DNA of 64,000 nt from Rhizobium acidisoli (lineage in GTDB: Bacteria; Pseudomonadota; Alphaproteobacteria; Rhizobiales; Rhizobiaceae), in NCBI RefSeq assembly GCF_002531755.2, contig NZ_CP035002.1:62001-126000 (forward strand), written 5' to 3'. Position 1 is the first letter of the stretch; each line of letters begins with the position of its first letter. This document shows, piece by piece, positions 910 to 23,629 of this stretch. A program made the translations under genes and the position numbers. The notes under the pieces were generated by a model, which ran no database searches, was not told where the DNA came from, and was given only the letters and a program-made list of their open reading frames with translations.

Positions 910-1185
910 ATGTCCCGATCCCCTCGATCTTATTCCACGAGCGACCTGTCCCGGAAATCCGGCGACATTATCGCTGAGGCGCTTCGCCATCCGGTCATAA
1001 TCACCCAGCGCAACAAGCCCCGCCTCGTCCTCCTCACTATCGAAGACTACCAGCGACTGCTAACACGGTCTGCTCGACGCACTGCCGGAACCATCGAAAC
1101 GATGTCCGATGAGTTATTCTCCGAGTTCGGAAACGCTGTTGAGACCTATGCTGACGACAGGGAGACGCCACATCGACCGTCATAG
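910..1185 (+). CDS. Phd/YefM-family antitoxin-like protein
   Basis: About 91 residues from the ATG at 910. In-frame ATGs also occur at 838, 898 and 904, but GGAGA sits six bases before 910. The N-terminal half has the Phd/YefM layout: a Ser/Asp-rich start, then a segment ending in PVIITQRNKPRLVLLTIEDY, which matches the family pattern of a beta strand with N-x-P and a hydrophobic strand before a Y-x-R-L helix. Family members bind DNA and neutralise a toxin encoded just downstream. Here the next gene is traG on the opposite strand, overlapping tail-to-tail by six bases, so no toxin partner is present. It may be an orphan antitoxin or a plasmid regulator. Confidence 0.65.
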   Translation: MSRSPRSYSTSDLSRKSGDIIAEALRHPVIITQRNKPRLVLLTIEDYQRLLTRSARRTAGTIETMSDELFSEFGNAVETYADDRETPHRPS

Positions 1186-6700: not shown

Positions 6701-8414
6701 GAGGGAGCAGGTGGAAAAGCTCTGGGAAAGGGCAAGCGTGGCGCTCGGCTTTGCCATCGAGCGAGAACGGCGGGTCGCCTACAACGAGGCGCGAACTGAA
6801 CCCCACATCGTCTCGGGCGCAAGCGCTGGCGAAGCACACTATTTGATCCCGCCGACCACTTCGTTCGTCAGGAGCGTCGAGGCGGATGCGCGGCGGGCGC
6901 AGCATTCGTCGCCGGCCTGGGCGGAGCGGGAAGCAGTCCTTCGGCCGCTGCTTGATAAGATCTACCGGGATCCGGATGCAGCACTTGTTGCCCTGAATGC
7001 GCTCGCCTCGGACGCCGGCACTCAACCCCGCAGGCTCGCCGACGAGCTTGCCGCAGCCCCCGACCGGCTCGGCCGGTTGCGTGGCTCCGAGCTGATCGTC
7101 GACGGACGCGCGGCGCGCAACGAGCGCAAGGTCGTCATGGCGGCTGTGAAGGAATTGCTTCCCTTGGCTCGCGCCCATGCGACCGAGTTCCGCAGAAACG
7201 CCGAACGGTTCGAACTCCGTGAACAGACGCGCCGCTCCTATATGTCATTGTCGATCCCGGCGCTCTCCGAACGCGCGACGGCGCGTCTTATGGAGATTGA
7301 GGCGGTGCGCAGCCGGGGCGGGGACGACGCCTATAAGACGGCCTTTGCGCTCGCCGCCGAGGACCGCACCATCGTCCAGGAAATCAAGGCGGTCAGCGAA
7401 GCATTGTCCGCCCGCTTTGGCTGGAGTGCCTTCACCGCGAAGGCGGATACGGTTGCTGAACGCAATATTGCTGAGCGTATGCCGGAAGATCTGACGGCCG
7501 GCCGGCGCGAGGAACTGACCGGGCTGTTCGAAGCCGTGAAGCGTTTTGCCGGAGAGCAGCATCTCACCGAGCGCCGGGATCGTTCGAAAGTCGCCGCCGG
7601 CGCGAGCGCCGATTTGAGCAAAGAGTCAGGAAAGGAAAATGTCACCATGCCGCCCATGTTTGCCGCCGTCACCGAGTTCAAGACGTCGGTCGACGATGAG
7701 GCTCGATTGCGAGCGCTCTCTAACCCTCTCTACCGTCAACAGCGGCCCGCATTGGCCAACGCCGCGACGACCGTCTGGCGCGATCCGGCGAGCGTCGTCG
7801 GCAAGATCGAGGAACTGCTCGGGAAAGGTTTTGCCGCTGATCGCATTGCCGCAGCAGTGACCAACGATCCGGCCGCCTATGGTGCGTTGCGCGGCTCCGA
7901 TCGCCTGATGGATCGGATGCTGGCGTCCGGCCGGGAACGGAAAGAGGTGATGCGGGCCGTGCCCGAAGTGGCAGCCCGCCTGCGGTCGCTTGGGACCGCC
8001 TATGCAAACACCCTCGAAGCCGAGCGTCAGGCCATCATCGAAGAGCGCCGACGCATGGCGGTTGCTATTCCCAGTCTGTCGAGAGCTGCGGAAGAGGCCC
8101 TGCTGCACCTAACGGCGGAGGTGAAAACGAATGGTCGCAAACCGCATGTTTCGGCGACTCCCCTCGATTCGAGCATTCGCCGAGAGTTCGCCGACGTCAG
8201 CCGGGCCCTCGACGAGCGCTTCGGGCGAAATGCCATCATCCGCGGTGACGAGGATCTCATCAGCCGCGTGCCGCCGGCGCAGCGGCCGGCCTTCGCGACG
8301 ATGCAGGACAGGTTGAAGGTGCTGCAGCAGACCGTACGCCAGGAAAGCAGTGAACAGATTATCGCGGAACGCCGCCAGCGCGCTTCGCAACGCAGCCGCG
8401 GCATCGGGCTGTGA
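3777..8414 (+). CDS. traA: Ti-type relaxase/helicase TraA with C-terminal BID-like modules
   Basis: A relaxase-helicase of 1545 residues that nicks oriT and unwinds the transferred strand. The N-terminal MobA/MobL-type domain has Tyr25 (SAAAYRHR) as the likely catalytic tyrosine and a metal-binding HIH at 143-145. A RecD-like helicase follows, with Walker A GLAGAGKST around 413-421 (Lys419), Walker B IDEAG at 483-487, and a late helicase motif YAATIHKSQG near 730. Ti-plasmid TraA proteins are nearer 1100 residues. The extra C-terminal part, from about 1030, contains two related modules (about 1031-1288 and 1297-1545). Each carries an LRGS block, a basic ERKEVM/ERKVVM helix and an IPxLS motif, resembling the BID secretion-signal domains known from TraA proteins of some rhizobial plasmids. 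The start is GTG at 3777, with an ATG at 3786 as the alternative. No traF/B/H genes follow. Confidence 0.93.
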   Translation: MAIMFVRAQVISRGAGRSIVSAAAYRHRARMIDEQAGTSFSYRGGASELMHEELALPGEIPAWLRSAISGQSVARASEVLWNAVDAFEKRADAQLARELIIALPEELTRAENIALVRDFVRDNLTSKGMVADWVYHDKEGNPHIHLMMTLRPMIEEGFGPKKVPVLSEEGKPLRVVTPDRPNGKIVYRVWAGDKETMKAWKIAWAETANRHLALAGHEIRLDGRSYAEQGLGGIAQKHLGPEKAALARNGRELYFAPADLARRQEIADRLLAEPDLLLKQLGNERSTFDERDIAKALHRTVDDPGDFANIRARLMASDQLVILKPQEIDQETGKAAAPAVFTTRDILRIEYDMAQSARVLSKRGGFGVSRRHVEAAIDRVESRDPKNPFRLDAEQVDAVHHVTGDSGIAAVVGLAGAGKSTLLAAARLAWESQGRRVIGAALAGKAAEGLEDSSGITSRTIASWELAWANGRDALHRGDVLVIDEAGMVASQQMARVLKIAEEAEVKVILVGDAMQLQPIQAGAAFRAITERIGFAELAGVRRQREAWARDASRLFARGDVEKGLDAYAQQGHLVEAGTREETIDRIVSDWAAARKQAIGRSISEGRDGHLRGDELLVLAHTNDDVKRLNEALREVMAGEGALSDSRAFRTERGTRDFAVGDRIIFLENARFLEPRAKHSGPQYVKNGMLGTVVATGDKRGDPLLSVLLDNGRKVVFSEDSYRNVDHGYAATIHKSQGATVDRTFVLATGMMDRHLTYVSMTRHRDRVDLYAAKEDFEPRPEWGRKPRVDHAAGVTGELVETGEAKFRPEDKDADDSPYGDVRTDDGTVHRLWGVSLPKALEDAGISDGDTVTLRKDGVERVKVQVAIVDEATGQKRYEEREVDRNVWTASRIETAYVRRERIAQESHRPEVFEQLVERLSRSGAKTTTLDFESEAGYRAQAQDFARRRGLDHLSLAAAEMEESLSRRWTWIAAKREQVEKLWERASVALGFAIERERRVAYNEARTEPHIVSGASAGEAHYLIPPTTSFVRSVEADARRAQHSSPAWAEREAVLRPLLDKIYRDPDAALVALNALASDAGTQPRRLADELAAAPDRLGRLRGSELIVDGRAARNERKVVMAAVKELLPLARAHATEFRRNAERFELREQTRRSYMSLSIPALSERATARLMEIEAVRSRGGDDAYKTAFALAAEDRTIVQEIKAVSEALSARFGWSAFTAKADTVAERNIAERMPEDLTAGRREELTGLFEAVKRFAGEQHLTERRDRSKVAAGASADLSKESGKENVTMPPMFAAVTEFKTSVDDEARLRALSNPLYRQQRPALANAATTVWRDPASVVGKIEELLGKGFAADRIAAAVTNDPAAYGALRGSDRLMDRMLASGRERKEVMRAVPEVAARLRSLGTAYANTLEAERQAIIEERRRMAVAIPSLSRAAEEALLHLTAEVKTNGRKPHVSATPLDSSIRREFADVSRALDERFGRNAIIRGDEDLISRVPPAQRPAFATMQDRLKVLQQTVRQESSEQIIAERRQRASQRSRGIGL

Positions 8415-9082
8415 AAATCAATGAACACGCGAAGTGGTCGGGCTTCAGACGGCGCTGTCCACCGGCGCGGTTAGTCAACTTCGTGAATAAGCGGCGATCA
8501 AAGACTGTTGGCTGTCAGGTCTCACGCTCGAGCCGCAGCAGTCTCCTCTGCGTTCAGATGTTTGAAAACCCTCACCCAAAAGCTGAAGTCACCGGCACGG
8601 CCGTCGGAGCGCGCGCCTAATGCGCACCAGGCCGCCGCCGTTTTCGCATTTAGTCCGTAAAGCGATCGAGCGGCATCACTTGTATCCCCAACATCTCTAT
8701 CACTCCAAATATCAGGCGTGGCCGCGGCGGCGCAGCCGCGTGAATACTCTTCGAATATTTCGCGCATTGAAAAACCCCGTTACCGTCCGGAAACAGGTCG
8801 TCAAGATATGCCGGACGTTGATCCCATCAAATGGGCCACGATCACGTGCCGTCCCTGGCAAATATGCGCTTCGGCGCGAAATTCCTTCCGCATTCAACAT
8901 TATGTTGTAACAAAATAAAAAGGCAAGCTATAAAAATACCCGGAATGAGAGCGCTTTCGTGACTCGTTCAAGCCAAGTGCGAAGCTAATGCGTGAGGTTC
9001 CCATGAAAGTGACATATCCTGGCGAATATTTTGTGGTATCAAAATCCATCTTGATAAGGGTCTCGGATTGCGGGGCCAGCAG
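8415..9082. other. Intergenic stretch between traA and the regulator gene
   Basis: About 670 bases with no coding frame I can support. The composition falls from GC-rich to AT-rich toward the right. The right part holds a probable operator (8900-8915) and is the likely promoter region of the regulator starting at 9083. It marks the boundary between the conjugation block and the metabolic island. Confidence 0.5.
8900..8915. promoter_or_regulatory. Putative GntR-type operator, left end of island
   Basis: TTATGTTGTAACAAAA differs at one position from TTTTGTTGTAACAAAA, the complement of the perfect site at 16114-16129. It lies about 170 bases before the regulator gene at 9083. The same palindrome family occurs beside gntR, which suggests that the regulator at 15369 also controls this end of the island. 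A looser relative, GTTGCATAAACAAAA, lies at 9829-9843 before the oxoamine synthase gene. Confidence 0.55.
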
Positions 9083-9766
9083 ATGAGCGAACTTCTCGCG
9101 ATCGTATCCCGAGACGCTGACTATTATTTGATGCTCGAGCATATTTTGAAGGAAGGCGGATACAGGACAATGCTCATCGATGTTCCGAGCGAAGCCGTCC
9201 CGACAGTCGAGGAGTTAGACGCCGCAGCGATCATCGTCGACTGCCAGCCGGGTTCGCAAATTTTGTCTGATATCGCCGCCAGCCTCAAGGAGAGAGGGCT
9301 TGCCAGCGAGGTCACCCTCATCGCGCTGGTCGCCGAAAAAACCGCCTATCTCGACATTTTGAAAGCCAATGTCGATGAGAGCTTTACAAGGCCCATGCGG
9401 CCGGAACGCCTCTTGTCTTACCTTCACGGTGCAATAGGGAATTCCGCCGACAACGTGCGTCGCCGCCTCCTTCCAATATTCGACGATATGAAATTGGACA
9501 CCAAGGGTCGGCGTGTTCTGGTACGGGGCACGCCGATCAACCTTAGTCCGATCGAGTTTCGCCTGTTGAGCGCCCTGATGGGGGACGTGGGACGAGTTCT
9601 CAGCCGGGTCGAGCTGATAGGTATCGCTTGGCCGCAGGGAGCATTCGTCGAGCCGCGGACGGTCGATGTTCATATCGGCCGCCTCCGGCGGGCTTTGAAG
9701 CGAGCCCTTGGCCGCGATGTGATCCGGACGGTGCCAAAGGTAGGATATGCGATGAACATCGTCTGA
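9083..9766 (+). CDS. OmpR/PhoB-like regulator with degenerate receiver
   Basis: About 227 residues from the ATG at 9083, with GCGGGGCCAGCAG upstream; an in-frame start at 9068 is possible. The C-terminal half is a clear OmpR-type winged helix, with a LSPIEFRLLSAL entry and a TVDVHIGRLRRAL recognition helix followed by an IRTVPKVGYAM wing. The N-terminal receiver is altered. The acidic pocket is IVSRDADYY instead of two adjacent acids, the switch Thr is lost, and the conserved Lys is replaced by Arg (TRPM), although an Asp remains at the usual phosphorylation position (IIVDC). It may therefore work without phosphorylation. No sensor kinase gene is adjacent. It is paralogous to the gene at 20057. 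Confidence 0.85.
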   Translation: MSELLAIVSRDADYYLMLEHILKEGGYRTMLIDVPSEAVPTVEELDAAAIIVDCQPGSQILSDIAASLKERGLASEVTLIALVAEKTAYLDILKANVDESFTRPMRPERLLSYLHGAIGNSADNVRRRLLPIFDDMKLDTKGRRVLVRGTPINLSPIEFRLLSALMGDVGRVLSRVELIGIAWPQGAFVEPRTVDVHIGRLRRALKRALGRDVIRTVPKVGYAMNIV

Positions 9767-9889
9767 CCTTGTGAACCTAGTTACATTCACATCTTCACCG
9801 AAAATTCCTTAAAACTTACCGTCGCGTTCGTTGCATAAACAAAAGACTCGCGGTTAGCGTGCAGTCTGTCCAACGTTTGGGAGCACAAA

Positions 9890-11131
9890 ATGCAAGAGGC
9901 CGCTTCGGGTGCCGGGTCGCCCATGATATCTCACAGAAACACAGCCAGTTTGATCAGGCATGCCGCTCCTCACTTCGCCGCAGCCCATCTCGATGGCCTG
10001 ATGGCACTTTATGTCCATCCGGCGGATGGTCGAGCCGTGACGATGCCAATATCAGAAAGCCGATCGCAACGTGTCATCGACTTCGTTCGCTGCTCCTATC
10101 TCGGGCTCGACAATCATCCCGCGATCATCGAGGGCGCTATTGAGACCGTTCGGCGCTACGGAACGCTACACTGGTCCTGCGCCCGCACGCGGCTCAATTT
10201 TGCAGTCCTGGGAGATCTCGAGGATGCGCTCTCTGACCTTTTCGCCGCAAGGGTCATTACCTACACGACGGTTCTTGCCGCCAATATGAGCGCTCTTCCT
10301 TTGATTGCGTCGGGAGTCCTGACTGGGGGCAAAAAACCTGTGATGGTGTTCGATCGCCTCGCTCATGCGACGCTCGCATTTAACAAGCCCGTCGTCGCCG
10401 AAGAATGCGTGGTTCGCACCATAGGCCACAACGATCTTCAGGCGCTGGAAGACATTTGCCGTCAGAATGAGACGGTCGCCTATGTCTGTGATGGTGTCTA
10501 TTCCATGGGCGGTTGTGCGCCGATCAAGGAATTGCGCGAGCTTCAGGAGCGATACGGCCTTTTCCTCTATATTGATGATGCTCATGGCATATCGCTCTTC
10601 GGAGAAAGGGGCGAGGGTTTTGCCCGTTCGCAAATGCCCGAGGGTCTCGAAGAGCGGACCATAATCGCGGCCTCACTCGGCAAGGGCTTCGGCGCCTCAG
10701 GCGGCATGTTGATGCTTGGAACGTCGTTTCAGGAAGAAATTTTTCGCCGCTTTGCTCTCGCCCATGCCTTTTCGGCCTCGATCAATGTTGCGGCGATTGG
10801 TGCTGCCCTCGCCTCCGAGGTAATCCATCGCACACCGGAACTCGGCGTGCGGCAAAGGGCATTGGCCGAATATATTTCTCTGTTCGACGAACTGGTGCCA
10901 ACCGCACAGGCGGGATCCCGACTTCCTATCCGCACCGTTGTCGTCGGTGACGAGCTGGCGGCAATCGGTGCCGCCAGAGTCGTGCTCGATGCCGGTTACT
11001 ATGCATCGGCCATATTCTTCCCGACGGTGGCCAAGGGGAGGGCAGGGCTGCGCATATGTCCGACTGCCAGCCACACGGCCGCGGAAGTGCGCGAGGTCGC
11101 CGCTGCCATCAATCGTGCCCTCAAGGGCTAA
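9890..11131 (+). CDS. Alpha-oxoamine synthase-like PLP enzyme
   Basis: A 413-residue fold-type I PLP enzyme of the family that includes AONS (BioF), KBL, ALAS and CqsA. These enzymes condense an amino acid with an acyl-CoA to give an alpha-aminoketone. Visible motifs are the cofactor Asp-Ala-His (YIDDAHGISLFG) near residue 225 and the Schiff-base Lys265 in ASLGKGFGASGG. The loop that usually reads GSGGSR is replaced by LHWSCARTR, so substrates probably differ from BioF. The ATG at 9890 follows GGGAG. It converges with the ABC transporter operon. No biotin or heme genes lie nearby. A CqsA-like role in making a signal is possible but unproven. Confidence 0.8.
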   Translation: MQEAASGAGSPMISHRNTASLIRHAAPHFAAAHLDGLMALYVHPADGRAVTMPISESRSQRVIDFVRCSYLGLDNHPAIIEGAIETVRRYGTLHWSCARTRLNFAVLGDLEDALSDLFAARVITYTTVLAANMSALPLIASGVLTGGKKPVMVFDRLAHATLAFNKPVVAEECVVRTIGHNDLQALEDICRQNETVAYVCDGVYSMGGCAPIKELRELQERYGLFLYIDDAHGISLFGERGEGFARSQMPEGLEERTIIAASLGKGFGASGGMLMLGTSFQEEIFRRFALAHAFSASINVAAIGAALASEVIHRTPELGVRQRALAEYISLFDELVPTAQAGSRLPIRTVVVGDELAAIGAARVVLDAGYYASAIFFPTVAKGRAGLRICPTASHTAAEVREVAAAINRALKG

Positions 11132-11177
11132 GGATCGGTCTTCACCCCGGACGCTTCTTCTCGCTCGGGGATGGTCG

Positions 11178-12236
11178 TTATCGGATCCAGGCATTCCAAC
11201 GCTCGAGCATCGTCGCGGAATTTTCATTGATCCATTTGGCGTCCGGAATGACGATGTAATCCCTGATATCATCGTCGCTTGGCAACGCTGCACGTGCTGC
11301 CGGCGACATCAATGCGATCGCCTTGCGACTGGGCGGCGTGCAAAGGAGTTCCTCGCAGACTTTCGCCTGCGCCTCGGGGTGATCAAGCCAGTAGCCGACC
11401 AGCTTTAACGCATTCGCCCGGTTCGGCGCGCCCTTGATGATGGTCAAGCGATCGCCAACTAAGAAAGAAGCCTGCTTGGACCAGGCGATCTGGCGGCCTT
11501 CAGCCTTCAGAGTATTTGCCCGCGTCAGCCAGATCTGGCCGATGCTGTAGTCGCCGTTGCGAAACCCTTGAACGCTCTGATCACCGGTCTTCCACCAGAG
11601 CGATATTGCTGGACGGATCTCGTCAAGCTTTTTGAGTGCGCGGTCGACGTCGAGCGGAAAGAGCTTGTCGCGCGGGACACCATCGGCCAGCAGTGCAGCG
11701 GCCATGACCCGCCACGGATCGTCGAAATTCGGAAAAGACCGACCACCGGGAAATTTCGCCTGGTCCCACATGTCAGCCCAGCTCGACGGGCTTCCTTCCT
11801 TGAAGCCGGTAGGGTCGTAAGCCATGAGCGTTGCGGTCGAAAAAAGCCTGGCCCCGGCAGTGACACAGGCATCGTCGACCAAGTCTGGTCGGCCTTGAAA
11901 GGGTTTGCAAAATTCGGTGAGGTCTTCAGACGTCAACCGATGCGTTTCAGCGCTCGCCTGGATCTCGCCATCCGGATAGAGGTCCCAGGTCACATTGCCT
12001 GTCTTGACCATCGCCGATGCTTTCGCTCGCATCTCCGCATTTGTTGCCGCGACCGAGACGACTTTGATGCCGGTCTCTTCGGTAAACGGCTCGAACCAGA
12101 ATTTTCGCAGCGCCGCATCGTAGGCGCCGCCAGTGGTCGCAATGACCACCTGCTCCTCAGCATGGGATACCCCCGCACCAACTAGCGTGAGGCAAGCCGC
12201 AAGCAGCAAGGGCCTGATCTCGATTCGTTTTGTCAT
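11178..12236 (-). CDS. ABC transporter substrate-binding protein, PotD-type
   Basis: A periplasmic binding protein of 352 residues. The signal peptide covers residues 1-26 (core LLLAACLTLVGAG, cleavage after SHA). The mature part starts with the VVIATTGGAYDAAL strand-loop typical of the polyamine/opine/iron-type class and contains LMAYDPTGF and SSWADMWD segments found in PotD-like proteins. The ATG at 12236 has GAGGAAA upstream; longer in-frame extensions overlap the permease gene and look non-coding. It is last in a four-gene importer operon (ATPase, permease, permease, binding protein). The ligand cannot be read from the sequence. Confidence 0.9.
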   Translation of the reverse strand: MTKRIEIRPLLLAACLTLVGAGVSHAEEQVVIATTGGAYDAALRKFWFEPFTEETGIKVVSVAATNAEMRAKASAMVKTGNVTWDLYPDGEIQASAETHRLTSEDLTEFCKPFQGRPDLVDDACVTAGARLFSTATLMAYDPTGFKEGSPSSWADMWDQAKFPGGRSFPNFDDPWRVMAAALLADGVPRDKLFPLDVDRALKKLDEIRPAISLWWKTGDQSVQGFRNGDYSIGQIWLTRANTLKAEGRQIAWSKQASFLVGDRLTIIKGAPNRANALKLVGYWLDHPEAQAKVCEELLCTPPSRKAIALMSPAARAALPSDDDIRDYIVIPDAKWINENSATMLERWNAWIR

Positions 12237-12270
12237 CGCGTTTTCCTCTGTCCGGATGAATATGGCCACG

Positions 12271-13122
12271 TTAGTCCTCCCCGCGGCCTGTAAGGAGATA
12301 GATGGAGCCCATGAGGACGAGTGATATCGCGACGAGCAGCGTCGAAACCGATGCAATGACCGGGGTGAGATTGAAATCGATATCCTCGAACATTTTGCGG
12401 CTGATCGTTTTGCCGCCGGTATCGGAGATGAAGAATGCGACCGTTGCCTCATCGAATGATGCTAGAAACGCAAAAACCGAAGCAGCTGCGACCGCCGGTG
12501 AAATGTTTGGAAGCACGATGCTGAAGAAGGTGCGGCTGCGGCTTGCCCCGCAATTCAGTGCGGCAAGTTCAAGTGACGGGTCAAAGCGCTCGAGTGCTGC
12601 CGATACGGTGATGATCACGTAGGGGACCGAGAGCACGGTGTGCGCGACCAGGAAACCAGCAAAATTGCCTGTCAGGCCAAGCGGCGACAAAATCAGATAG
12701 AGCGCAACGCCGAAGACGACATGGGGGACAATCATCGGCCCGAGCGACAGCGCCTGCAGAAGGGCCTTGCCCGGCAAATTGCCGCGAACGAGTCCGATGG
12801 CGGCCATTGTTCCGATTGCCGTCGAAGCGATGGTTGTCGATAGCGCAATCTTCAGGCTGAAAATCGTCGCCGCGCGCCAGTCCGGATCGGAGAGAAATTC
12901 GCTATACCAGCGAAGCGTCAGGCCCTTCGGCGGGAATTGGATATAGCTGCTGTCATTCAGCGAAATCGGAATAACGAGCAACGTCGGCAGCACCAGGAAG
13001 AATAGGATTGCGCCAATCAGCAATCCCCCGAAGAGCCGCAAGACTGCCTTGCCATAAGGTCGATGGCTGCTGTTGACGCAAGAGGCGGCGCTTGCCGTGG
13101 CGGTTGCTGACTCAGTTGGCAC
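12271..13122 (-). CDS. ABC transporter permease, PotC-type
   Basis: A 283-residue inner-membrane permease with about six hydrophobic segments. The binding-protein-dependent transport signature (EAA loop) lies at roughly 190-210: ELAALNCGASRSRTFFSIVLP, written here with its key residues E, A, G and P. It overlaps the upstream permease gene by 11 bases. With the other permease it should form the membrane channel of a PotABCD-type importer. Confidence 0.9.
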   Translation of the reverse strand: MPTESATATASAASCVNSSHRPYGKAVLRLFGGLLIGAILFFLVLPTLLVIPISLNDSSYIQFPPKGLTLRWYSEFLSDPDWRAATIFSLKIALSTTIASTAIGTMAAIGLVRGNLPGKALLQALSLGPMIVPHVVFGVALYLILSPLGLTGNFAGFLVAHTVLSVPYVIITVSAALERFDPSLELAALNCGASRSRTFFSIVLPNISPAVAAASVFAFLASFDEATVAFFISDTGGKTISRKMFEDIDFNLTPVIASVSTLLVAISLVLMGSIYLLTGRGED

Positions 13123-14020
13123 TGTTCATTCCTTTGCTGACGGAAAGGGCCTTGCGGAACACAAGGACAAAGATGAGCGTCGTGGTAAGAAGGACCGTCG
13201 CGAGCGCTGCGGCGAATGGCCAGTCAAGCAGGACGATAGTTTGCTGGCCGATCAGCGTTGCCATCATCAATGCTCCCGGTCCGCCAACAAGGGCTGGCGT
13301 GATATAAAAACCGATCGCCAGGATGAAGCACATGACGCACCCGGCAAAGATTCCAGGCAGGCTGAGGGGCAAGGTCACGCGCAGGAAGGCGCCCATCGGG
13401 CCGGCGCCGAGATTGCGGGCGGCCTGGCTATACTCGGCAGGAATTGTGCGAAGAGCATTGCAGATGGGCAGGATCATGAAGGGCATGAGAACATGTGTCA
13501 TCGCGAGGATGACGGCGCCCTCGGTATAAAGGAGCTTCAAAGGACTGGTGACGACGCCGGTTTCAATGAACAAGCCATTGATAACCCCGTTTCGCTGCAG
13601 CAGCACGATCCAGGCGTATGATCGCACCAGCACTGAGGTCCACAGCGGCACGAATACTGCCGCCACGACGATCATTGCAGCCTTGCCTCTGGCGCGCGCC
13701 ATGAGAAAGGCAACCGGATATCCGAGTAGCAGGCTCGCCACAGTGACAATTGCACCCGTCTGCAGCGTGCGAAGTAGGACGTCGATGTAAAGTGGCTCGG
13801 TTACAATCCGCCGGTAATATTCGAGCGTGAATTCCGGCGCCATAACGCTCAAAGAGATGAGCCGGCCAATCGGATAGAGGAAGCCTGCGGCCAGTAGGAG
13901 CATCAACGGGGCAACAAGCACGAGCGTCAGCGCATGCGAATAACGCCGTGCCGAGTATGAGAATAGCCAGCTTGCAGAAACGGTCGGTGTCGGTGCGAGA
14001 TTGTCGACGGTCGCAGTCAT
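13112..14020 (-). CDS. ABC transporter permease, PotB-type
   Basis: A 302-residue permease starting at the ATG at 14020, three bases past the ATPase stop. It has a cytoplasmic N-terminus of about 25 residues, then about six membrane segments. The EAA-loop is at AARNLGAGPMGAFLRVTLP, with the conserved Ala-Gly-Pro pattern. A longer reading frame exists upstream but overlaps the ATPase gene entirely and is not supported. It is the partner of the PotC-type permease. Confidence 0.9.
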   Translation of the reverse strand: MTATVDNLAPTPTVSASWLFSYSARRYSHALTLVLVAPLMLLLAAGFLYPIGRLISLSVMAPEFTLEYYRRIVTEPLYIDVLLRTLQTGAIVTVASLLLGYPVAFLMARARGKAAMIVVAAVFVPLWTSVLVRSYAWIVLLQRNGVINGLFIETGVVTSPLKLLYTEGAVILAMTHVLMPFMILPICNALRTIPAEYSQAARNLGAGPMGAFLRVTLPLSLPGIFAGCVMCFILAIGFYITPALVGGPGALMMATLIGQQTIVLLDWPFAAALATVLLTTTLIFVLVFRKALSVSKGMNSAN

Positions 14021-14021
14021 C

Positions 14022-15131
14022 TCATGCCTCCGCATCGGCAAAGAGCCGCAGGCCGTCGCGCTCGGCAATGACATCCACGGGGGTACCCGTCGCAAAGCGC
14101 GCTCTCGTCCCATCGGTGGAGATCTGCACCTGAATGATTTCTCCGTTCCCGAAATCGGTGCGAACGAGATGAAGATCGAAAGAGCCTGCAAAGACCGAGG
14201 TCTCGATCCGGCCGGGCAGGGCGTTCTTTCCCCCTGCGCCGCGCGCCGCAAGACCAAGGCGCTCGGGTCTGAGCGCAAGACGAACGCGATCCCCGATCTT
14301 TGCCGAACCCTCGAAACCCGGAAAAGCGCCCGGCGTATCAATGACCACATCATCACCCAGTCTGATCGTCTGGCTGCCGGCGATGTCGCCCAGGTATTCT
14401 CCAGTCAGGAAGTTCATCTTGCCGATGAAGTCCGCAACAAAGGCACTCTGCGGATTGCAGTAAATCTCCGCCGGGGTTCCGAGTTGAGCGAGTTGCCCCT
14501 TTGCCATAACGGCGATCCGGTCGGACATGGTCAACGCCTCCTCTTGATCGTGCGTCACGTAGATGACCGTAGCGCCGAGCCGCTGCTGCAACTGCTTGAT
14601 CTCGAGCTGCATGGATTCGCGCAGCTTCTTGTCGAGTGCCCCGAGCGGCTCGTCCATCAGGAGAACAGGCGGTTCGAAGACAATTGCTCGCGCGACCGCC
14701 ACACGCTGTTGCTGGCCGCCGGATAATTCGTGGGGATAGCGCCTGGCGTAGTCCGGGAGTTGGACGAGGTCGAGCGCCCGGCCGACGCGTTCGGCTCTGA
14801 GGTTCTTGCGAATGCCGCGCATCTTCAGTGGAAAGGCTATGTTTTCAGCGACGGTCAGATGGGGGAACAAGGCATAACGCTGAAAGACCATCCCGATATT
14901 GCGGCGATCGGGCGACATGGTGGTGACATCGCGCCCGCCGATAATGATGCGCCCGGCAGAAGGGCTTTCGAAGCCCGCGATCATTGTCAGGAGCGTCGTT
15001 TTCCCCGACCCGGATGGACCAAGGATCGACAGGAATTCGCCGGCGGGAATTTCCAAGGTCACTGCGCCAACGGCAGTCTGGCTGCCATAAGCCTTGCCAA
15101 TGCGATCGATGAAAACAGGCGCACCAATCAA
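14022..15131 (-). CDS. ABC transporter ATP-binding protein, PotA-type
   Basis: An ATPase of the PotA/FbpC group, 369 residues from the TTG at 15131. AGGGAGA lies eight bases upstream of that codon, and the homologous part starts just after it. An in-frame ATG at 15212 would add 27 unrelated-looking residues. Visible motifs are Walker A GPSGSGKTT, the Q-loop VFQRYALFPHL, signature LSGGQQQR, Walker B VLLMDEP and the H-loop VTHDQEEA. A C-terminal TOBE-like domain begins near residue 285 (LRPERL). It is first gene of the minus-strand importer operon, divergent from gntR across a palindromic operator. Confidence 0.92.
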   Translation of the reverse strand: MIGAPVFIDRIGKAYGSQTAVGAVTLEIPAGEFLSILGPSGSGKTTLLTMIAGFESPSAGRIIIGGRDVTTMSPDRRNIGMVFQRYALFPHLTVAENIAFPLKMRGIRKNLRAERVGRALDLVQLPDYARRYPHELSGGQQQRVAVARAIVFEPPVLLMDEPLGALDKKLRESMQLEIKQLQQRLGATVIYVTHDQEEALTMSDRIAVMAKGQLAQLGTPAEIYCNPQSAFVADFIGKMNFLTGEYLGDIAGSQTIRLGDDVVIDTPGAFPGFEGSAKIGDRVRLALRPERLGLAARGAGGKNALPGRIETSVFAGSFDLHLVRTDFGNGEIIQVQISTDGTRARFATGTPVDVIAERDGLRLFADAEA

Positions 15132-15317
15132 AATGATATCTCCCTTTCGCGTGTTGAACGTGTTGGAACCTCCCCGGCCGCTTGTGTGGTGCGGGGTTGC
15201 TGTGGGCATCATGCCGGGGGACGGCAGGTCGTGTGGATACGGCCTTGCGCGGCGAGGCGTTGCTACTATTCACGATCCCGTTATGCTGTCACATTAGAGG
15301 ATCGTTTCGGTCTCATT

Positions 15318-15339
15318 CATTTTTGTTGCAACAAAAATG
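15318..15339. promoter_or_regulatory. Perfect palindromic operator between importer operon and gntR
   Basis: The core TTTTGTTGCAACAAAA (15321-15336) is a perfect palindrome, extended by CAT and ATG to 22 bases. It lies 30 bases before the gntR start in the divergent promoter region. This placement suggests autoregulation and joint control of the importer operon. Matching sites occur at 16114-16129 and, with one change, at 8900-8915. Confidence 0.75.
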
Positions 15340-15368
15340 TGAAGAAGTCAACGCTTGGGGGATAAGAA

Positions 15369-16067
15369 TTGAGCAAAAATACAACCTTGAAGGAATCGCA
15401 GGCGCCTGAGGCGCAGGTGGGGCGCATCAGCGACTTCGCTTACGCCTCCATCAAGGAGCTTCTCGCACGCGGCACTTACAAGCCCGGTCACAAGCTGCCG
15501 ATCCGCTCAGTGGCCGAATTGCTGAACGTTGGCTCTACGCCGGCGCGCGAGGCGATCAACCGATTGGTCTTCGAGGGCGCGCTCGTAATGGTGGGCCCTA
15601 AATCCGTCATCGTCCCGCACCTCGATCTCGCCGCCCTGTATGAAGTCACGCAAATGCGGCTTGCGCTTGAAGGGTTGGCGACTGAGAAGGGCGCATTGCT
15701 CGCGACGGAAGAGACAATTGATAACCTATTATTTCTGCAAGGGAAGATAACGAAGGCGCTTGATGAAAAGCGCTATGCGGACGCCCTTCACGACAACAAG
15801 GAATTTCATTTTACGATCTATCGACTTTGTCGGATGCCGCATCTCCTTTCAACGATCGAGGCGTTGTGGTTGAGGGTCGGAGCTTCGTTTCATAACCTCT
15901 ATCCTGACTTCGCTGAGACCAAGCATGGCGTGCGCAACCACATGGCCGCGATAGAGGGGCTTGTCGACAAAGATCCATCAGCTGTCCGTGCCGCGATGGA
16001 AAATGATATCCGTGACGGCTACCGGCGCTTGAAGAAATCTGCGCAGAAGCGGCTCAACCAGGAATGA
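15369..16067 (+). CDS. GntR-family (FadR/FCD-type) transcriptional regulator
   Basis: A 232-residue DNA-binding regulator. The N-terminal winged helix carries GntR hallmarks (YKPGHKLPIRSVAELLNVGSTPAREAINRL, in pieces), and the C-terminal helical FCD domain carries its metal-binding pattern: the NKEFH helix, ASFHNLY and RNHMAAI. FCD regulators usually sense small organic acids or related metabolites. The likely start is TTG at 15369, with GGGGGATAAG upstream. It sits between the divergent importer and the aminotransferase operon and is the best candidate to bind the TTTTGTTGCAACAAAA-type sites. Confidence 0.92.
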   Translation: MSKNTTLKESQAPEAQVGRISDFAYASIKELLARGTYKPGHKLPIRSVAELLNVGSTPAREAINRLVFEGALVMVGPKSVIVPHLDLAALYEVTQMRLALEGLATEKGALLATEETIDNLLFLQGKITKALDEKRYADALHDNKEFHFTIYRLCRMPHLLSTIEALWLRVGASFHNLYPDFAETKHGVRNHMAAIEGLVDKDPSAVRAAMENDIRDGYRRLKKSAQKRLNQE

Positions 16068-16084
16068 TCATGCCGTTTGACTTT

Positions 16085-16129
16085 TTTTGTTGCAACTTCT
16101 TCTCCTTCATGATTTTTGTTACAACAAAA
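16085..16129. promoter_or_regulatory. Two operator-like sites before the aminotransferase operon
   Basis: TTTTGTTGCAAC at 16085-16096 keeps only the left part of the palindrome. TTTTGTTACAACAAAA at 16114-16129 is a nearly perfect full site. Both lie between the gntR stop and the aminotransferase start at 16175, so gntR and the downstream three-enzyme operon probably have separate but co-regulated promoters. Confidence 0.65.
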
Positions 16130-16174
16130 TTATGAAGGGTCGCGCCGCGGCCCGCGTTGGCCGGAGAAGATCGC

Positions 16175-17536
16175 ATGTTTCACCCAGATTTATCGCGAAC
16201 CGGCCGGGGGTATTCCCGGTCGAGGTCCGAACATTTCTTCAAAAGGGGGCGCCGGGTATTTCCGACGGGGATCACGCGGGTCACTGTGGATCACGAGCCC
16301 AGCCCGCTCTACATCTCTCGCGGGGAGGGAGCCTATCTCATTGACGTCGACGGCAACCGGCTGCTCGATCTCAACAACAATTTCACGACGCTAATCCACG
16401 GCCATGGTTTCCTTCCGGTCGCCGATGCCGTTGCAGATCTTCTTCATCGCGGCACGTGTTTCTCCAACCCAACCGAGCACGAGATCACGCTGGCCGAGCT
16501 ATTGATCGAGCGCATTCCGGCCGTTGAGCATATTCGTTTCGTCAACAGCGGCACCGAGGCTGTGATGTTTGCGATCAAGGCCGCCCGAGCATTTACCTGC
16601 CGGCCAGGCGTTGCACGCATCGAAGGCGCCTATCACGGTGCTTACGACTGGGCGGAAACGGGGCAGACGGTGTCGCCGGCTATCTGGAGCGACCCGCAGC
16701 GATCGTCGGCTGTACCCGCCTATCGTGGTATGCCGCCCTCGGTCGCCGACGAGGTGACCGTTATCCGCTTCAATGACGTCGCGGATCTCGAGCGTCGGAT
16801 AGCTTCTGCAGCCCCTTCACTCGCCTGTATCCTCATTGATCCGATGCCGAGCCGTGCCGGGCTGGTTGCGCCGGAGCCGAGCTTCCTTGCTGCCGTCGGT
16901 GCCATCGCCAAGCGATATGGGATTCTCGTCGTCGCCGACGAAGTCCTCAATCTGCGACAGTCCTATGCCGGAGCTTCGGCCCGCTACGGTCTGCAGCCCG
17001 ACCTGATCGCGGCAGGCAAGATCATCGGCGGAGGTTTTCCGGTCGGGGCAATTGGTGGGCGCGAGGAGGTCATGCGGGTCTTCGCCAGCGACAGCGGCAA
17101 GCCGCTTCTTCCGCAAGGCGGCACGTTTTCGGCAAATCCGGTATCTATGGTCGCGGGCCGGGTGGCAATGGAGGCGATGACAGAGGCCGCATTCGGTTCG
17201 CTGGAAAGCCTTGGCGATACCATTCGGGCAGGTCTTCGAAAGGAAATCGAGCGCCGTGGCGTAGCTTTCAGCGTGACGGGGGCCGCATCATTGTTTCGGA
17301 TCCATCCGAAAGGCAAGGAGCCAACGGACTTCCGCGAGGCCTATCTCGTGCCGCAAGAGGCCGACTTAATGGCTCGCCTTTCCAGGCATTTCCTCGATTG
17401 CGGCATCCTGCTTCCAAATGGCGCCGCCGCGTGCCTATCCACGGCAATGACCGACGCTGACGGTGATGCGGTCATTTCGGCCTTTGCTGACTTCCTTTCA
17501 ATCCTCGAAGCAAATCCAACAGAAGCAGGCATCTGA
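16175..17536 (+). CDS. Class III aminotransferase, glutamate-1-semialdehyde aminomutase-like
   Basis: A 453-residue PLP enzyme. The ATG at 16175 has GGAGAAG six bases upstream, better than the TTG at 16157. Family motifs are RVTVDHEPSPLYI, the phosphate-binding FVNSGTEAVMFA, the cofactor Asp in VVADEV, and Schiff-base Lys282 in AAGKIIGGGFPVG. The layout matches HemL-like mutases and transaminases, but no heme genes are present and the context is catabolic or secondary metabolism. It is first of a three-enzyme operon, with two bases separating it from the ThDP gene. Confidence 0.85.
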   Translation: MFHPDLSRTGRGYSRSRSEHFFKRGRRVFPTGITRVTVDHEPSPLYISRGEGAYLIDVDGNRLLDLNNNFTTLIHGHGFLPVADAVADLLHRGTCFSNPTEHEITLAELLIERIPAVEHIRFVNSGTEAVMFAIKAARAFTCRPGVARIEGAYHGAYDWAETGQTVSPAIWSDPQRSSAVPAYRGMPPSVADEVTVIRFNDVADLERRIASAAPSLACILIDPMPSRAGLVAPEPSFLAAVGAIAKRYGILVVADEVLNLRQSYAGASARYGLQPDLIAAGKIIGGGFPVGAIGGREEVMRVFASDSGKPLLPQGGTFSANPVSMVAGRVAMEAMTEAAFGSLESLGDTIRAGLRKEIERRGVAFSVTGAASLFRIHPKGKEPTDFREAYLVPQEADLMARLSRHFLDCGILLPNGAAACLSTAMTDADGDAVISAFADFLSILEANPTEAGI

Positions 17537-17538
17537 TT

Positions 17539-19248
17539 ATGGCAACCGATGTTTTCACCGTCGCCGAGCGTATCGCTCATTCTCTCAAGAGGCACAACGT
17601 CACCCATATCTTCGCTCAAAGCCTGCCTTCGGCGGTGATCCTCGCCGCCGAAGCGATCGGAATCCGCCAGGTCGCCTACCGCCAGGAAAACATGGGCGGG
17701 ACCATGGCTGATGGTTATGCGCGTTTGTCCGGGAAGGTTAGCGTCGTCGCAGCGCAAAACGGCCCGGCCGCTACGCTTCTCGTCCCACCGCTTTCCGAGG
17801 CGCTGAAGGCCAGCGTACCGATTGTCGCTCTCGTCCAAGACGTTGAACGAGATCAGGCTGATCGCAATGCATTTCAGGAGCTCGACCATCTCGCATTGTT
17901 CCAATCCTGCACGAAGTGGGTGCGCAAGGTAATCGTTGCGGAGCGGATCGACGATTATATCGATGCTGCATTTACGGTAGCCGCCTCGGGCCGGCCGGGG
18001 CCGGTCGCTCTCCTGCTTCCCGCCGACCTGTTACGAGAGCAGATAGCGCCGTCACCATTTCGGCGCGAGGCTGCCCTGGGTCACTGGCCGCTCGATCGGT
18101 TGCGCCCGCGCAATGACGACATCGAGCGCGCAGCCTCGATGATCGCGGCAGCTCACGGTCCCATCATCGTCGCGGGAGGCGGCGTTCATGCGAGCCGCGC
18201 CGCTAGCGAACTGTCGGCGCTACAGGACGAGGCCTCGCTTCCCGTCGTCACGACCAATATGGGCAAAGGCGCGGTCGACGAGTACCATCCGCTGTCGGCA
18301 GGCGTTCTTGGCGCACTCGTTGGACCGAAATCGCTCGGACGACACACGGTTGCGCTTGTCGAGGAAGCCGATCTTGTTATTCTCATTGGGACGCGAACCA
18401 ATCAGAATGGCACCGATAATTGGCGTCAAATCCCCCCGTCCGCGTCAGTCATTCACGTCGATGTCGATCCCGCCGAGATCGGTCGTACATACGAGGCCGT
18501 CAGGTTGGCGGGCGATGCTGCCGAGACTATTCGGGCGCTTCGAAGCGAGCTCGCCGGAAGCGATCTCTCCTACCGCACATCGAAGCGTAATCAATTGACT
18601 GACAGGATCGCCGGGTTCTGGCGCTCGTTTGACACGGAACGGCAATCCGTTGTCCGATCGGACGCCAGTCCGATCCGCCCCGAGCGCATCATGTTCGAGC
18701 TGCAACAGTTGATGACGGCAGATACGACCGTTGTTGCCGATGCGAGCTATTCCTCAATGTGGGTCGCCGGCCAGTTGCGGGCACTTTCGCCCGGCATGCG
18801 CTTTCTCTTGCCGCGGGGCCTTGCAGGTCTCGGGTGGGGCCTGCCGCTTGCGCTCGGCGCGAAAGCGGCAGAGCCCGACAGGCCGGTCGTTACGATCGTC
18901 GGGGACGGCGGCTTCGCCCATAGCTGGGCGGAACTGGAGACTATGGTGCGTAGCAAGCTTCCTATCCTCATTATCGTGTTGAACAATGGCATCCTCGGTT
19001 TTCAGCGTGACGCGGAAACTGCCAAGTTCGGCAGATTCACGACTGCCTGCGGCTTTGCGGATGTCGACCATCAGAAAATTGCGGAAGCTTGCGGCTGCCC
19101 GGCAGTTCGCATTTCCGACCCCGCCGATCTTCCTCGTTACCTCGAGCGCGGTCTCTCTGGAGAGGGCCCTCTGCTGATCGAAGTCATGACAGACCCTGGC
19201 GCCCATCCCCCGCTGTCGCTGTTTGCTGCAATGGATCAAGCGGCATGA
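17539..19248 (+). CDS. Thiamine-diphosphate-dependent acetolactate synthase-like enzyme
   Basis: 569 residues, normal for the acetohydroxyacid synthase / decarboxylase family. The catalytic Glu is Glu50 (AYRQENMGGTMADGYA). The ThDP/Mg site is the GDGG motif at Asp456 followed about 26 residues later by LNNGIL. A central Rossmann-like domain (IIVAGGGVHASRA) starts near 205. Such enzymes join or cleave 2-oxo acids through a ThDP carbanion. It is not a housekeeping ilvB by context, since no small subunit follows. It sits between an aminotransferase and an SDR, and its stop overlaps the SDR start (ATGA). Confidence 0.85.
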   Translation: MATDVFTVAERIAHSLKRHNVTHIFAQSLPSAVILAAEAIGIRQVAYRQENMGGTMADGYARLSGKVSVVAAQNGPAATLLVPPLSEALKASVPIVALVQDVERDQADRNAFQELDHLALFQSCTKWVRKVIVAERIDDYIDAAFTVAASGRPGPVALLLPADLLREQIAPSPFRREAALGHWPLDRLRPRNDDIERAASMIAAAHGPIIVAGGGVHASRAASELSALQDEASLPVVTTNMGKGAVDEYHPLSAGVLGALVGPKSLGRHTVALVEEADLVILIGTRTNQNGTDNWRQIPPSASVIHVDVDPAEIGRTYEAVRLAGDAAETIRALRSELAGSDLSYRTSKRNQLTDRIAGFWRSFDTERQSVVRSDASPIRPERIMFELQQLMTADTTVVADASYSSMWVAGQLRALSPGMRFLLPRGLAGLGWGLPLALGAKAAEPDRPVVTIVGDGGFAHSWAELETMVRSKLPILIIVLNNGILGFQRDAETAKFGRFTTACGFADVDHQKIAEACGCPAVRISDPADLPRYLERGLSGEGPLLIEVMTDPGAHPPLSLFAAMDQAA

Positions 19249-20021
19249 GCGCCGACTGCAGCGCGCACGTTGCCGTTATCAGCGGGGGCACGACCGGGAT
19301 TGGTCTTGCCACCGCGTTTCGTCTGCTCAAAGCCGGCCATCGGGTTGCCGTCTTCAGTCATGGTCGGGAAAGCGTCATGGCCGCCGGCGCAGCACTTGCC
19401 GAGGCTTTCGGGCCAGAACGCTCAATTGTGAGACAGGTCGATCTCCGTGAGCCGGCGGCCGTCGAACAGTTTTTCCGCGAAGTCGCCGATGTCTTGGGCG
19501 CGCCTGGGATTCTCGTGTGCAACGCGGGGATCTCGCCAAGAGGTCCCAACGGCCCTCTCGACATCGCCGACCTTGGCCTTGAGGAGTGGAACGACGTGCT
19601 CGCCGTCAACCTGACGGGCACGATGTTGTGTTGCCGGGTCGTTCTGCCCGGCATGAAGGAAAGAGGTTATGGGCGCGTCATATTGGTTGGATCCCTCGCG
19701 GGCCGGACGAGACCGCGGATTGCCGGCCCGAGCTACGTGGTGTCAAAAGCTGCCCTTTCAGGGTTATCTCGCGTCCTGGTCTCTCAATATGGCCCCTACG
19801 GCATCACATCGAATGTCGTGGCGCCAGGGCGTATCCTCACACCACTGACCGGATCCCCGGAAAGCAAGACAAACATCGAGGCGCTTGCCCGCATTCCCGC
19901 GGGTCGGCTCGGTGTTCCGGGCGATGTCGCTGCCGTGATCGCGTTCCTGGCATCGGAAGATGCCGGGTTCGTCAATGGAGCCATTATAGACGTCAATGGC
20001 GGCGAGTTCGCACCGAGCTAA
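19245..20021 (+). CDS. Short-chain dehydrogenase/reductase
   Basis: A 258-residue classical SDR. The nucleotide-binding motif is GGTTGIG (residues 14-20), with CNAGIS and the catalytic Ser in VGSLAG. Tyr164 and Lys168 form the YxxxK pair, and the C-terminus ends DVNGGEF as in 3-oxoacyl-ACP reductase relatives. It would reduce a ketone or oxidise an alcohol with NAD(P). ATGA overlap with the ThDP gene indicates coupled translation, so its substrate may be that enzyme's product. Confidence 0.9.
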   Translation: MSADCSAHVAVISGGTTGIGLATAFRLLKAGHRVAVFSHGRESVMAAGAALAEAFGPERSIVRQVDLREPAAVEQFFREVADVLGAPGILVCNAGISPRGPNGPLDIADLGLEEWNDVLAVNLTGTMLCCRVVLPGMKERGYGRVILVGSLAGRTRPRIAGPSYVVSKAALSGLSRVLVSQYGPYGITSNVVAPGRILTPLTGSPESKTNIEALARIPAGRLGVPGDVAAVIAFLASEDAGFVNGAIIDVNGGEFAPS

Positions 20022-20056
20022 AGTCGACGTTTTCAAGCGACAAAGGGGCGATCGAC

Positions 20057-20728
20057 ATGACACCACTCATTCTGGTTTGCTCGCAGGACGCCGAGCTTTA
20101 TTTGCTGCTTGCGCATATCCTGCGTTGCGAAGGCTTCGAGGCTCGTCTCGGAGCAAGTGAAGACGATGTAGTGGACGCTTGCACCTCGGCGGAGATTTCC
20201 GCAGTTCTCCTGGATTGTGTGGAGTGGCCAGGTGATGTTGCATTCCTATGTGCGCTGCTGAAGGGCGCCGGGCTTTCCGTAGGAGCGCTCATCGGCGAGG
20301 ATATGGGTGCCGAGCACCTGCAGTTGATCAAGTCGGGCCTCGACGAAGGCATCATGCGTCCTTTGTCGCCGTCGAAGCTTCTTGCCTTTTTGCACGGAAT
20401 AGGAACGCGGTCGGAGGTTGTGACCCGGCCAAGTTTCGCTATCGACCCCGAGTTTATATTCGAGCGGCACGCTGTTGTCGTCGGGGGCAAGAGAATAGCC
20501 CTTGCACCTATGGAGGCGAGAATCCTGAGATTCCTGCTAAAAAAGCATGGCCAAGTCAGCACCCGCGAACAACTCATTGAGGCCGTTTGGCCCGATCGGC
20601 ACGCAGTGATGAACAGGACGGTCGATGTGCATATCGGTCGACTGCGAAAAGCGGTCGCGGGACTCCGCAATCTGCGGGTCCGCACCGTATATGGCGCAGG
20701 TTACGCTCTTGAATTTCAAGATGGTTGA
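20057..20728 (+). CDS. OmpR/PhoB-like regulator with degenerate receiver (paralog)
   Basis: 223 residues. It has the same plan as the regulator at 9083: an N-terminal receiver lacking the acidic pair (LVCSQDAELYLLL), an Asp kept in VLLDC, and the switch Lys changed to Arg (MRPLSPSKLL). The C-terminal winged helix contains LAPMEARILRFL and TVDVHIGRLRKA. The two proteins share an unusual S-x-D-A-(D/E)-x-Y-L-x-L-x-H-I-L pattern at the N-terminus, which indicates duplication. It lies 35 bases after the SDR gene and is probably co-transcribed with the enzymes. No histidine kinase is nearby. Confidence 0.85.
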   Translation: MTPLILVCSQDAELYLLLAHILRCEGFEARLGASEDDVVDACTSAEISAVLLDCVEWPGDVAFLCALLKGAGLSVGALIGEDMGAEHLQLIKSGLDEGIMRPLSPSKLLAFLHGIGTRSEVVTRPSFAIDPEFIFERHAVVVGGKRIALAPMEARILRFLLKKHGQVSTREQLIEAVWPDRHAVMNRTVDVHIGRLRKAVAGLRNLRVRTVYGAGYALEFQDG

Positions 20729-21280
20729 AGTCGGCACGTGGTTGCCTCTGACTGACTTCGTCCCGACACCGCGTTCCGGATTCGACATGTACACGCCGGG
20801 CTATAGGTCATGCTTTGAAGATAACGGCTCTGGCCCAACGAGACGCCCTCGGGGCAACGCAGCGCCCACAAGGCGATTTGCAATGGCCGGAACACACCTG
20901 ATCAGTTCGATACCGCACGGAAACAAAGGGGAAGCGGCATTGTTACTGAGACGCCGCCTGACGCAAGAGCCTTCCGTGACCTGCGTGGGGCGCATCCGGT
21001 ATGGGAGCGTGAATGATGGACACAGCAACGCAATGGGCACTTCTTCTCGGTGTACTGACGTTGGCGAGCTGGATAGCAGGTGGCCTGGCAACCGTCCTCG
21101 GAAACGGGGGGGGTCGGCCAACACAGGCAAAAGGCGGTAGAATATCTGAGCCTCGGGCCAAACGGAATCGAATGCTTCGGAATTGCCGGGAACCCTCTCC
21201 CGGTTTGGTTGTTGGAGACGCGTTCGGATGCCGGCGGCATCCGCCGCTGGCCCACAACGAGATCCCAATAGGAGAGAGTG
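20729..21280. other. Intergenic stretch with a doubtful small membrane ORF
   Basis: About 550 bases between the regulator and the catalase remnant. A frame starting at 21016 (GGGAGCGTGA upstream) encodes a plausible membrane helix (ALLLGVLTLASWIAGGLATV). It then meets a run of eight Gs at 21106-21113 and continues as Arg-rich, unlikely protein. It may be a frameshifted small membrane gene or chance. The right end carries the catalase ribosome binding site (AGGAGAG). Confidence 0.35.
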
Positions 21281-22055: not shown

Positions 22056-22114
22056 GCGGCTAACTGGAGGGCATTGTTCGCCCGCCATCACTCAAGGCAT
22101 CTGGAGGAACAAAG

Positions 22115-23589: not shown

Positions 23590-23629
23590 GAGACGTCTTT
23601 ATGTGCTGGACCGCCGAATTTCGATGGCA

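Follow-up and report, generated by a model that had tools for sequence, protein, structure and literature searches.

The closest described system is the rct circuit of Sinorhizobium meliloti. The passages of PMC13274422 on this circuit state that the transfer genes are repressed by RctA, which RctB counters, and that RctC activates rctB. They further report that RctR acts as a repressor of a neighbouring operon that comprises several enzymes, that the inducing signal is unidentified, and that the activation circuit is found in 13 of 30 pSymA-like plasmids. Here we describe a block of eleven genes at positions 9083-20728 of a 64,000-nucleotide stretch of the Rhizobium acidisoli genome (hereafter the window, G000:C5:62001-126000; 7.5 Mb in 5 contigs). 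We believe that this block is probably the activation arm of a plasmid-conjugation switch of the rct type and that it forms one regulon defined by a shared operator.

Judged by strand and gap, the block consists of an OmpR-type regulator (RR1) with an alpha-oxoamine synthase on the plus strand, an importer of an ATPase, two permeases and a binding protein on the minus strand, and a GntR regulator, an aminotransferase, a thiamine diphosphate (ThDP) enzyme, a short-chain dehydrogenase/reductase (SDR) and a second OmpR-type regulator (RR2) on the plus strand. All reading frames and families claimed by the first-pass annotation were recovered at their places by open reading frame (ORF) and family searches, but its count of ten genes had to be raised to eleven. 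RR1 and RR2, which it had described as paralogous regulators bracketing the block, are indeed paralogues (34-36% identical). It had overlooked the adjacent traA gene and the match in gene order to the published rctR/rctC/rctB circuit.

All eleven window genes are also found in one stretch of S. meliloti 1021 pSymA (534-542 kb), with the importer divergent. Identity between the window and pSymA was 58% for GntR, 66% for the aminotransferase, 73% for the ThDP enzyme and 57% for the SDR. Both plasmids share the GntR gene, the enzyme operon ending in a regulator, and a second regulator followed by the synthase. Because pSymA holds all eleven genes in order, we read GntR as rctR, RR2 as rctC and RR1 as rctB, and these assignments, like the ligand class discussed below, are inferred. 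The two loci differ in that rctA and virB4 lie off the window's contig, and the published passages on pSymA describe no role for a synthase or importer and no operator.

The perfect palindrome TTTTGTTGCAACAAAA lies in the divergent promoter of the importer and the GntR gene. Four matches with at most 3 mismatches were present in the window (Table 1), whereas 0.12 were expected and 0 of 100 shuffles reached four. The exact palindrome with a free centre base occurs in the whole genome only at 15321 and 16114. For comparison, we used 80 loci, the best 80 of 134 confirmed synthase relatives, which are biased to the synthase subfamily because they were retrieved by the peptide patterns CSYLGLDN and HWSCARTR. 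With at most 3 mismatches, the site was found at all 50 importer/GntR promoters, in all 52 GntR-aminotransferase gaps, and just upstream of 45 of the 65 regulator-synthase pairs. These three places, the last being the regulator of the synthase pair, accounted for 173 of 174 sites; one lay elsewhere, and mononucleotide shuffles gave an expectation of 1.2. The operator pattern was derived from the same 80 loci; the window test and the whole-genome count serve as checks. The distribution of the sites indicates that the importer, the enzymes and the rctB-synthase pair are a predicted single operator-defined regulon, which is presented here as new. The shape of the palindrome fits the GntR-family operator consensus, and we infer that the GntR protein binds it. 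The importer, the GntR gene and the paired regulators carry one operator sequence, and therefore uptake and sensing are likely. This part of the signal system that had been proposed for the block is retained; the idea of a free-standing signal or metabolite system is not. The purpose is probably plasmid transfer.

In the proposed switch, the AttABC importer would take up a small amino-acid-like compound, and the compound or its product would make the GntR repressor leave the common palindrome. Expression of the importer and of the aminotransferase-ThDP-SDR operon would then begin, and their products would consume the compound. The rctC-like last gene of the enzyme operon would raise the rctB-like regulator, which would antagonise RctA and thereby release the genes for transfer. 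The rctB-like gene and the oxoamine synthase are probably expressed together.

A megablast search with window 9000-21000 matched 59 plasmid records (57 Rhizobium, 1 Sinorhizobium and 1 Phyllobacterium). At least 80% of the query was covered in 42 of them, as expected if the genes stay together. Among the 40 rows listed, the matches started at window 9029-9082 and ended at 20703-20730. The eleven-gene block is a conserved plasmid unit and no chance grouping. In the 80 loci, its parts recur beyond Rhizobium as two modules. In 65 loci, the synthase has a regulator on its own strand, no more than 600 bases upstream. At least three of the eight importer and enzyme genes, above set identity limits, were found in the flank in 55 loci, and when only the 60 loci with 9 kb of flank on either side are counted, in 45. 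The GntR gene adjoins a several-enzyme operon in the window, as in the rct circuit, and GntR was followed by the aminotransferase in 52 loci, the aminotransferase by the ThDP gene in 51, the ThDP gene by the SDR gene in 42, and the SDR gene by a regulator in 32. The enzyme operon thus closes with a regulator both in the window and in these 32 loci; that this regulator corresponds to rctC is our reading of the gene order. In the full-flank loci that lack importer and enzyme genes, the regulator-synthase pair was kept in nine of nine. No upstream regulator was found in 15 of the 80 loci, seven of which are Bradyrhizobium loci with other partners.

The block is also linked with conjugation genes. 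Genes of the tra, virB or rctA type were present in the fetched flank of 32 of the 80 loci, although four of these (L071, L073, L099 and L100) had only distant virB matches (31-37%). When the 79 usable loci were grouped by synthase identity, a transfer gene was nearby in 8 of 17 groups at 75%, 13 of 32 at 80% and 16 of 52 at 90%. An unbroken run of regulator, synthase, rctA, virB1-6 and virB8-10 was observed in seven loci (L058, L059, L063, L064, L065, L069 and L070). Here, rctA means the gene of 123 residues that R. etli p42d carries in divergent orientation to virB1, identified by its position against the printed description. Among 148 genomes of the genus, rctA was found in 72, the synthase in 40 and an AttC-like protein in 35. 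rctA was present in 35 of the 40 genomes with the synthase and in 37 of the 108 without it (Fisher p 6.5e-9), and all 35 genomes with the AttC-like binding protein had the synthase. In 15 of the 40 genomes with the synthase, many of them in draft contigs, rctA and the synthase shared a contig and were at most 30 kb apart, the shortest distance being 374 bases. The 20 control windows contained no transfer gene, a weak control since they were placed by hand with knowledge of the tra and virB positions. In the R. acidisoli genome, rctA and virB4 occur together on C2 (187-191 kb) and C4 (485-489 kb), and traA paralogues are on contigs C2, C3 and C4. Two of the traA matches, G000:C3:33167-37793 (two overlapping frames) and G000:C4:224588-229203 (a stop near the start), are possibly broken relaxase genes. 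C2 also carries, near 540 kb, a second set of synthase, GntR and regulator genes.

The OmpR-type regulators of the block have unusual receivers. Of the canonical response-regulator features (an acidic pair, the acceptor Asp and a Lys), RR1 has neither the first acidic residue nor the Lys. Among 99 aligned receivers, the acceptor Asp was kept in 89, the first acidic residue was Asp in none (Ser in 67, Thr in 24), and the Lys position was occupied by Arg in 85, Ser in 9 and His in 5; these counts depend on the alignment to one canonical regulator. Since the acidic residue and the Lys are replaced, the regulators are probably not phosphorylated in the usual way.

The synthase reached the NCBIfam model PRK07505 with 523 bits (cut-off 342). 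It missed the curated cut-offs of BioF (163 bits, cut-off 426) and KBL (best model 131, cut-off 460), as well as those of 5-aminolevulinate synthase (121 bits, cut-off 339) and serine palmitoyltransferase (105, cut-off 500), so these identities were ruled out; the suspicion that it is no ordinary BioF or KBL was thus borne out. The loop LHWSCARTR, which had been singled out as unusual, is present in the protein, but HWSCARTR is a trait of the subfamily: it was invariant in 23 of 23 aligned sequences (the window and 22 chosen from 120 listed homologues), and the preceding Leu was Val in one. The nearest solved relative is 8XHA (Alb29, 269 bits), and the next different enzyme scored 115. According to the parts of PMC11906848 on this enzyme, Alb29, the albogrisin oxoamine synthase, accepts L-glutamate together with several acyl-CoAs. 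In the substrate loop, Arg99 and Arg101 match 8XHA and not ThAOS. At the position of ThAOS Val79, which governs amino-acid choice, the window synthase has Cys97 and Alb29 has Leu (alignment read by eye). Although Alb29 is the closest solved enzyme and shares the Arg pair, it belongs to a Streptomyces natural-product pathway. In six loci (L034, which is outside the 80, L087, L092, L095, L105 and L106), an EamA exporter gene follows the synthase, in four of them behind a transaminase gene, and GNAT and amidohydrolase genes come next in several. From their gene content, these synthase-EamA loci look like make-and-export cassettes. In the Bradyrhizobium loci (L101, L108, L116 and others), the same synthase subfamily has no upstream regulator and stands in a different context; several of these loci have a second transaminase, a CoA-transferase of family III and a luciferase-like monooxygenase nearby.

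The importer binding protein matched 5L9S over 326 residues with 486 bits, followed by 3RPW and 4I1D (no ligand named). The Protein Data Bank (PDB) labels 5L9S with mannopine, and we take it to be AttC. The binding protein is 62% identical to AttC of pAtN33_94, where the attA1-A2-B-C genes keep this order and stand upstream of blcR and attM. By protein identity and gene order, the importer is orthologous to attA1-A2-B-C of the Agrobacterium pAt plasmids. On pAtN33_94, the importer stands beside the same regulators and enzymes; the window block lacks the pAt genes that follow it as far as blcR and attKLM/blcABC. PMC4051167 lists att genes under attachment in the section concerned, and PMC4231840 states, in the text available, that an attachment role of attKLM was refuted and that attachment is largely chromosomal.

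Further matches of the binding protein were 4EQ7 (130 bits, labelled polyamine), 9D57 (128) and 6DGV (125, labelled a sensor of gamma-aminobutyric acid, GABA), and MotA/agropine proteins scored 91. We take 4EQ7 to be a GABA-binding protein. Trp237, Arg240 and Asp263 were invariant in 29 of 29 sequences and align with Trp200, Arg203 and Asp226 of 4EQ7, which presumably hold GABA. The nearest solved relative of the aminotransferase was 6K8H (383 bits). This enzyme is described as active on beta-amino acids and 4-aminopentanoate, with Arg36 suggested to hold the carboxylate. Arg36 corresponds to Arg41 of the window aminotransferase, which is conserved in at least 95% of 58 sequences. The ThDP enzyme is PRK06112, with BbmA as the nearest solved chain. 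As the relatives of the synthase, the binding protein and the aminotransferase all point there, the compound may be a beta- or gamma-amino acid or similar to one.

What triggers the switch can be read in several ways. One is a conjugal-nutrient switch, in which plant or soil supplies the inducer, much as opines serve Ti plasmids, the operon is catabolic, and the synthase is a side or salvage enzyme. We give this reading about an even chance. An importer with GntR, a transaminase, a ThDP enzyme and an SDR is an ordinary catabolic make-up, and the binding protein belongs to the opine/polyamine/GABA group. The trigger of rct-type transfer is described in excerpts of the literature as an environmental signal, and the relevant part of PMC7856919 says that conjugal opines raise rctA and rctB transcription in strain C58. 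Against this, where the modules are separated, the synthase goes with the regulator and not with the catabolic genes. The pairing in all nine loci without importer or enzyme genes rather suits a self-made signal, by which co-expression of rctB and the synthase would close a positive loop and give a quorum-type control of conjugation without N-acyl homoserine lactones. The L-glutamate use of Alb29 with the shared Arg pair, the order of binding-protein matches after AttC (4EQ7, 9D57, 6DGV) with the conserved Trp/Arg/Asp trio, the conserved equivalent of Arg36 in the transaminase, and the EamA genes behind the synthase are all consistent with it. However, similarity does not fix the substrate, the basis is one characterised enzyme (four near-identical chains), the window block has no exporter, and catabolic GntR systems need no self-made ligand. 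We consider this reading rather unlikely and rank a plant or soil nutrient above a self-made signal as the possible inducer. A fuller version, slightly more doubtful still, is a second quorum-type conjugation control on rhizobial and agrobacterial plasmids: the rctB-linked synthase would make a glutamate-derived, GABA-like aminoketone, AttABC would re-import it, RctR would sense it, the enzymes would degrade it, and LuxR/LuxI would replace this input in some Mesorhizobium-type loci.

Two more specific readings have little in their favour. Catabolism of mannopine or another mannityl opine is suggested by the PDB label of the AttC chain; the binding protein scored 486 bits with AttC, 130 with 4EQ7 and 91 with MotA, and we regard this reading as improbable and set it aside on the order of the scores. 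AttC has reportedly been shown not to bind mannopine. A CqsA-like hydroxyketone signal system as in Vibrio, raised by the first-pass annotation, draws on the shared enzyme superfamily and the nearby SDR, but the CqsA model gave 61 bits against a cut-off of 428, PDB CqsA chains gave only 26 bits, and the eleven proteins include no sensor kinase. The CqsA identity of the synthase was rejected, and a system of this type is extremely improbable.

Several observations weigh against reading the block as an rct-type activation arm. The rct names were given by gene order and from the summary of Nogales 2013 in PMC13274422. The same source is quoted as saying that RctR does not repress rctB directly, yet the site lies upstream of 45 of the 65 rctB-like genes. 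R. etli p42d is described, in published extracts, as RctA/RctB-controlled, but all 371 kb of it encode no RR1- or RR2-like protein nor the rest of the block, with weak or partial matches only. In G383, whose rctA lies at exactly the p42d coordinates, the best match to the nine-row regulator profile was a canonical regulator beside pst/pho-type genes. Regulation on pSymA is said, in passages at hand, to differ from that of R. etli, which partly allows for the p42d result. The window's contig C5 has traA, but searches for rctA and virB4 on it gave no match. The regulator at C5:494749 was weighed as a possible RctA but discarded, since the locus holds a regulator with an ordinary receiver and C5 has no virB4. 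Consequently, the block would either work across plasmids, on the systems of C2 and C4, or serve only the adjacent DNA transfer and replication (Dtr) genes. In nine of the 60 full-flank loci, no gene of the importer or the enzymes exceeded the identity limits; gene calls in the loci are heuristic, and the loci are related, so that counts are not independent. The passages of PMC13274422 on Agrobacterium say that pAtC58 lacks the circuit. In A. fabrum pAtN33_94, the importer has GntR, the enzymes, two regulators and the synthase as neighbours, and these genes are thus present on at least one related pAt plasmid. A limited literature search found no published link of the synthase or the att importer to rct control, and its absence from print is not claimed. 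With these points counted, the rct-type activation arm is still the reading that we favour.

The regulator-synthase pair also occurs with quorum-sensing genes. A LuxR-type gene was near the pair in seven loci, with a LuxI-type gene in six of them (L034, L086, L087, L092, L095 at 6769-8150 and L105), some of Mesorhizobium type. The palindrome was upstream of the pair in none of the six LuxR loci among the 65 pairs; the chance that all six fall among the 20 pairs without a site is 4.7e-4, for loci that are related. Judging from these neighbourhoods, the pair is kept under either input, operator or LuxR. This resembles the LuxI/LuxR-controlled type II transfer of A. tumefaciens pAtP4, but the window has the palindrome upstream of the pair and its block has no LuxR or LuxI gene. 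PMC4992315 proposed RctA-RctB and RctA-quorum-sensing subclasses.

Table 1. Genes and candidate operator sites of the block and its conjugation-gene neighbours (window positions).
Feature	Position	Strand	Basis
traG-like coupling-protein gene, neighbour	1180..3096	-	ORF; annotated traG at the same position beside the block in CP007645 and NZ_CP022568; no search of its own
traA relaxase (Dtr) gene, directly upstream of the block	3777..8414	+	ORF; annotated TraA at the same position in CP007645 and NZ_CP022568
Operator-like site upstream of the rctB-like gene	8900..8915		2 mismatches
Operator-like site upstream of the rctB-like gene	9029..9044		3 mismatches
RR1, orphan OmpR/PhoB-type regulator	9083..9766	+	rctB-like by position
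Alpha-oxoamine synthase	9890..11131	+	PRK07505 subfamily; nearest solved relative Alb29
Solute-binding protein	11178..12239	-	AttC orthologue
ABC permease	12271..13122	-	AttB-like by gene order
ABC permease	13112..13996	-	AttA2-like by gene order
ABC ATPase	14022..15212	-	AttA1-like by gene order
Candidate operator, importer/GntR divergent promoter	15321..15336		perfect palindrome
GntR/FCD regulator	15369..16067	+	rctR-like by position
Candidate operator, GntR-aminotransferase gap	16114..16129		1 mismatch
Class III aminotransferase	16157..17536	+	nearest solved relative 6K8H (beta/gamma-amino-acid transaminase)
ThDP enzyme	17539..19248	+	PRK06112 subfamily (acetolactate-synthase-like)
SDR oxidoreductase	19239..20021	+	
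RR2, second orphan OmpR-type regulator	about 20057..20728	+	rctC-like by position

Other genes were observed near the block or its relatives. A nucleotidyltransferase-HEPN fusion gene was near the regulator-synthase pair in 30 loci (e.g. L098:11478-12425 and L118:7750-8691); this KNTase-HEPN gene was dropped as a part of the system, as the window block has no such gene. An M81 metallopeptidase (MlrC-like) gene was near the binding-protein gene in four loci (L077:11761-13419, L081, L088 and L091). At G370:C1:698151-699388, a synthase match in two frames adjoins the binding-protein gene of the importer. The LuxR, LuxI, EamA, GNAT, amidohydrolase, M81 and KNTase-HEPN families were assigned by Pfam on one representative per group, and the other members by clustering. 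Downstream of the block, window 21402-24820 holds genes for a Mn-catalase, a DUF4142 protein and an alpha/beta-hydrolase, and then a plasmid copy of the gene for the complex I 49-kDa subunit (nuoD-like). Polysaccharide genes (GDP-mannose dehydratase, Wzz, Wzy-type ligase and glycosyltransferase) lie at window 31605-48020.

If the block is one regulon with one operator, its signal can be searched for directly, and the ligand of the binding protein and the substrate of the transaminase would be the same or neighbouring molecules. If true, this would also give a concrete role to the attA1-A2-B-C genes of Agrobacterium. The signal that switches on rct-type transfer of symbiotic plasmids is called unidentified in the published passages, and a candidate trigger may now be put to the test.

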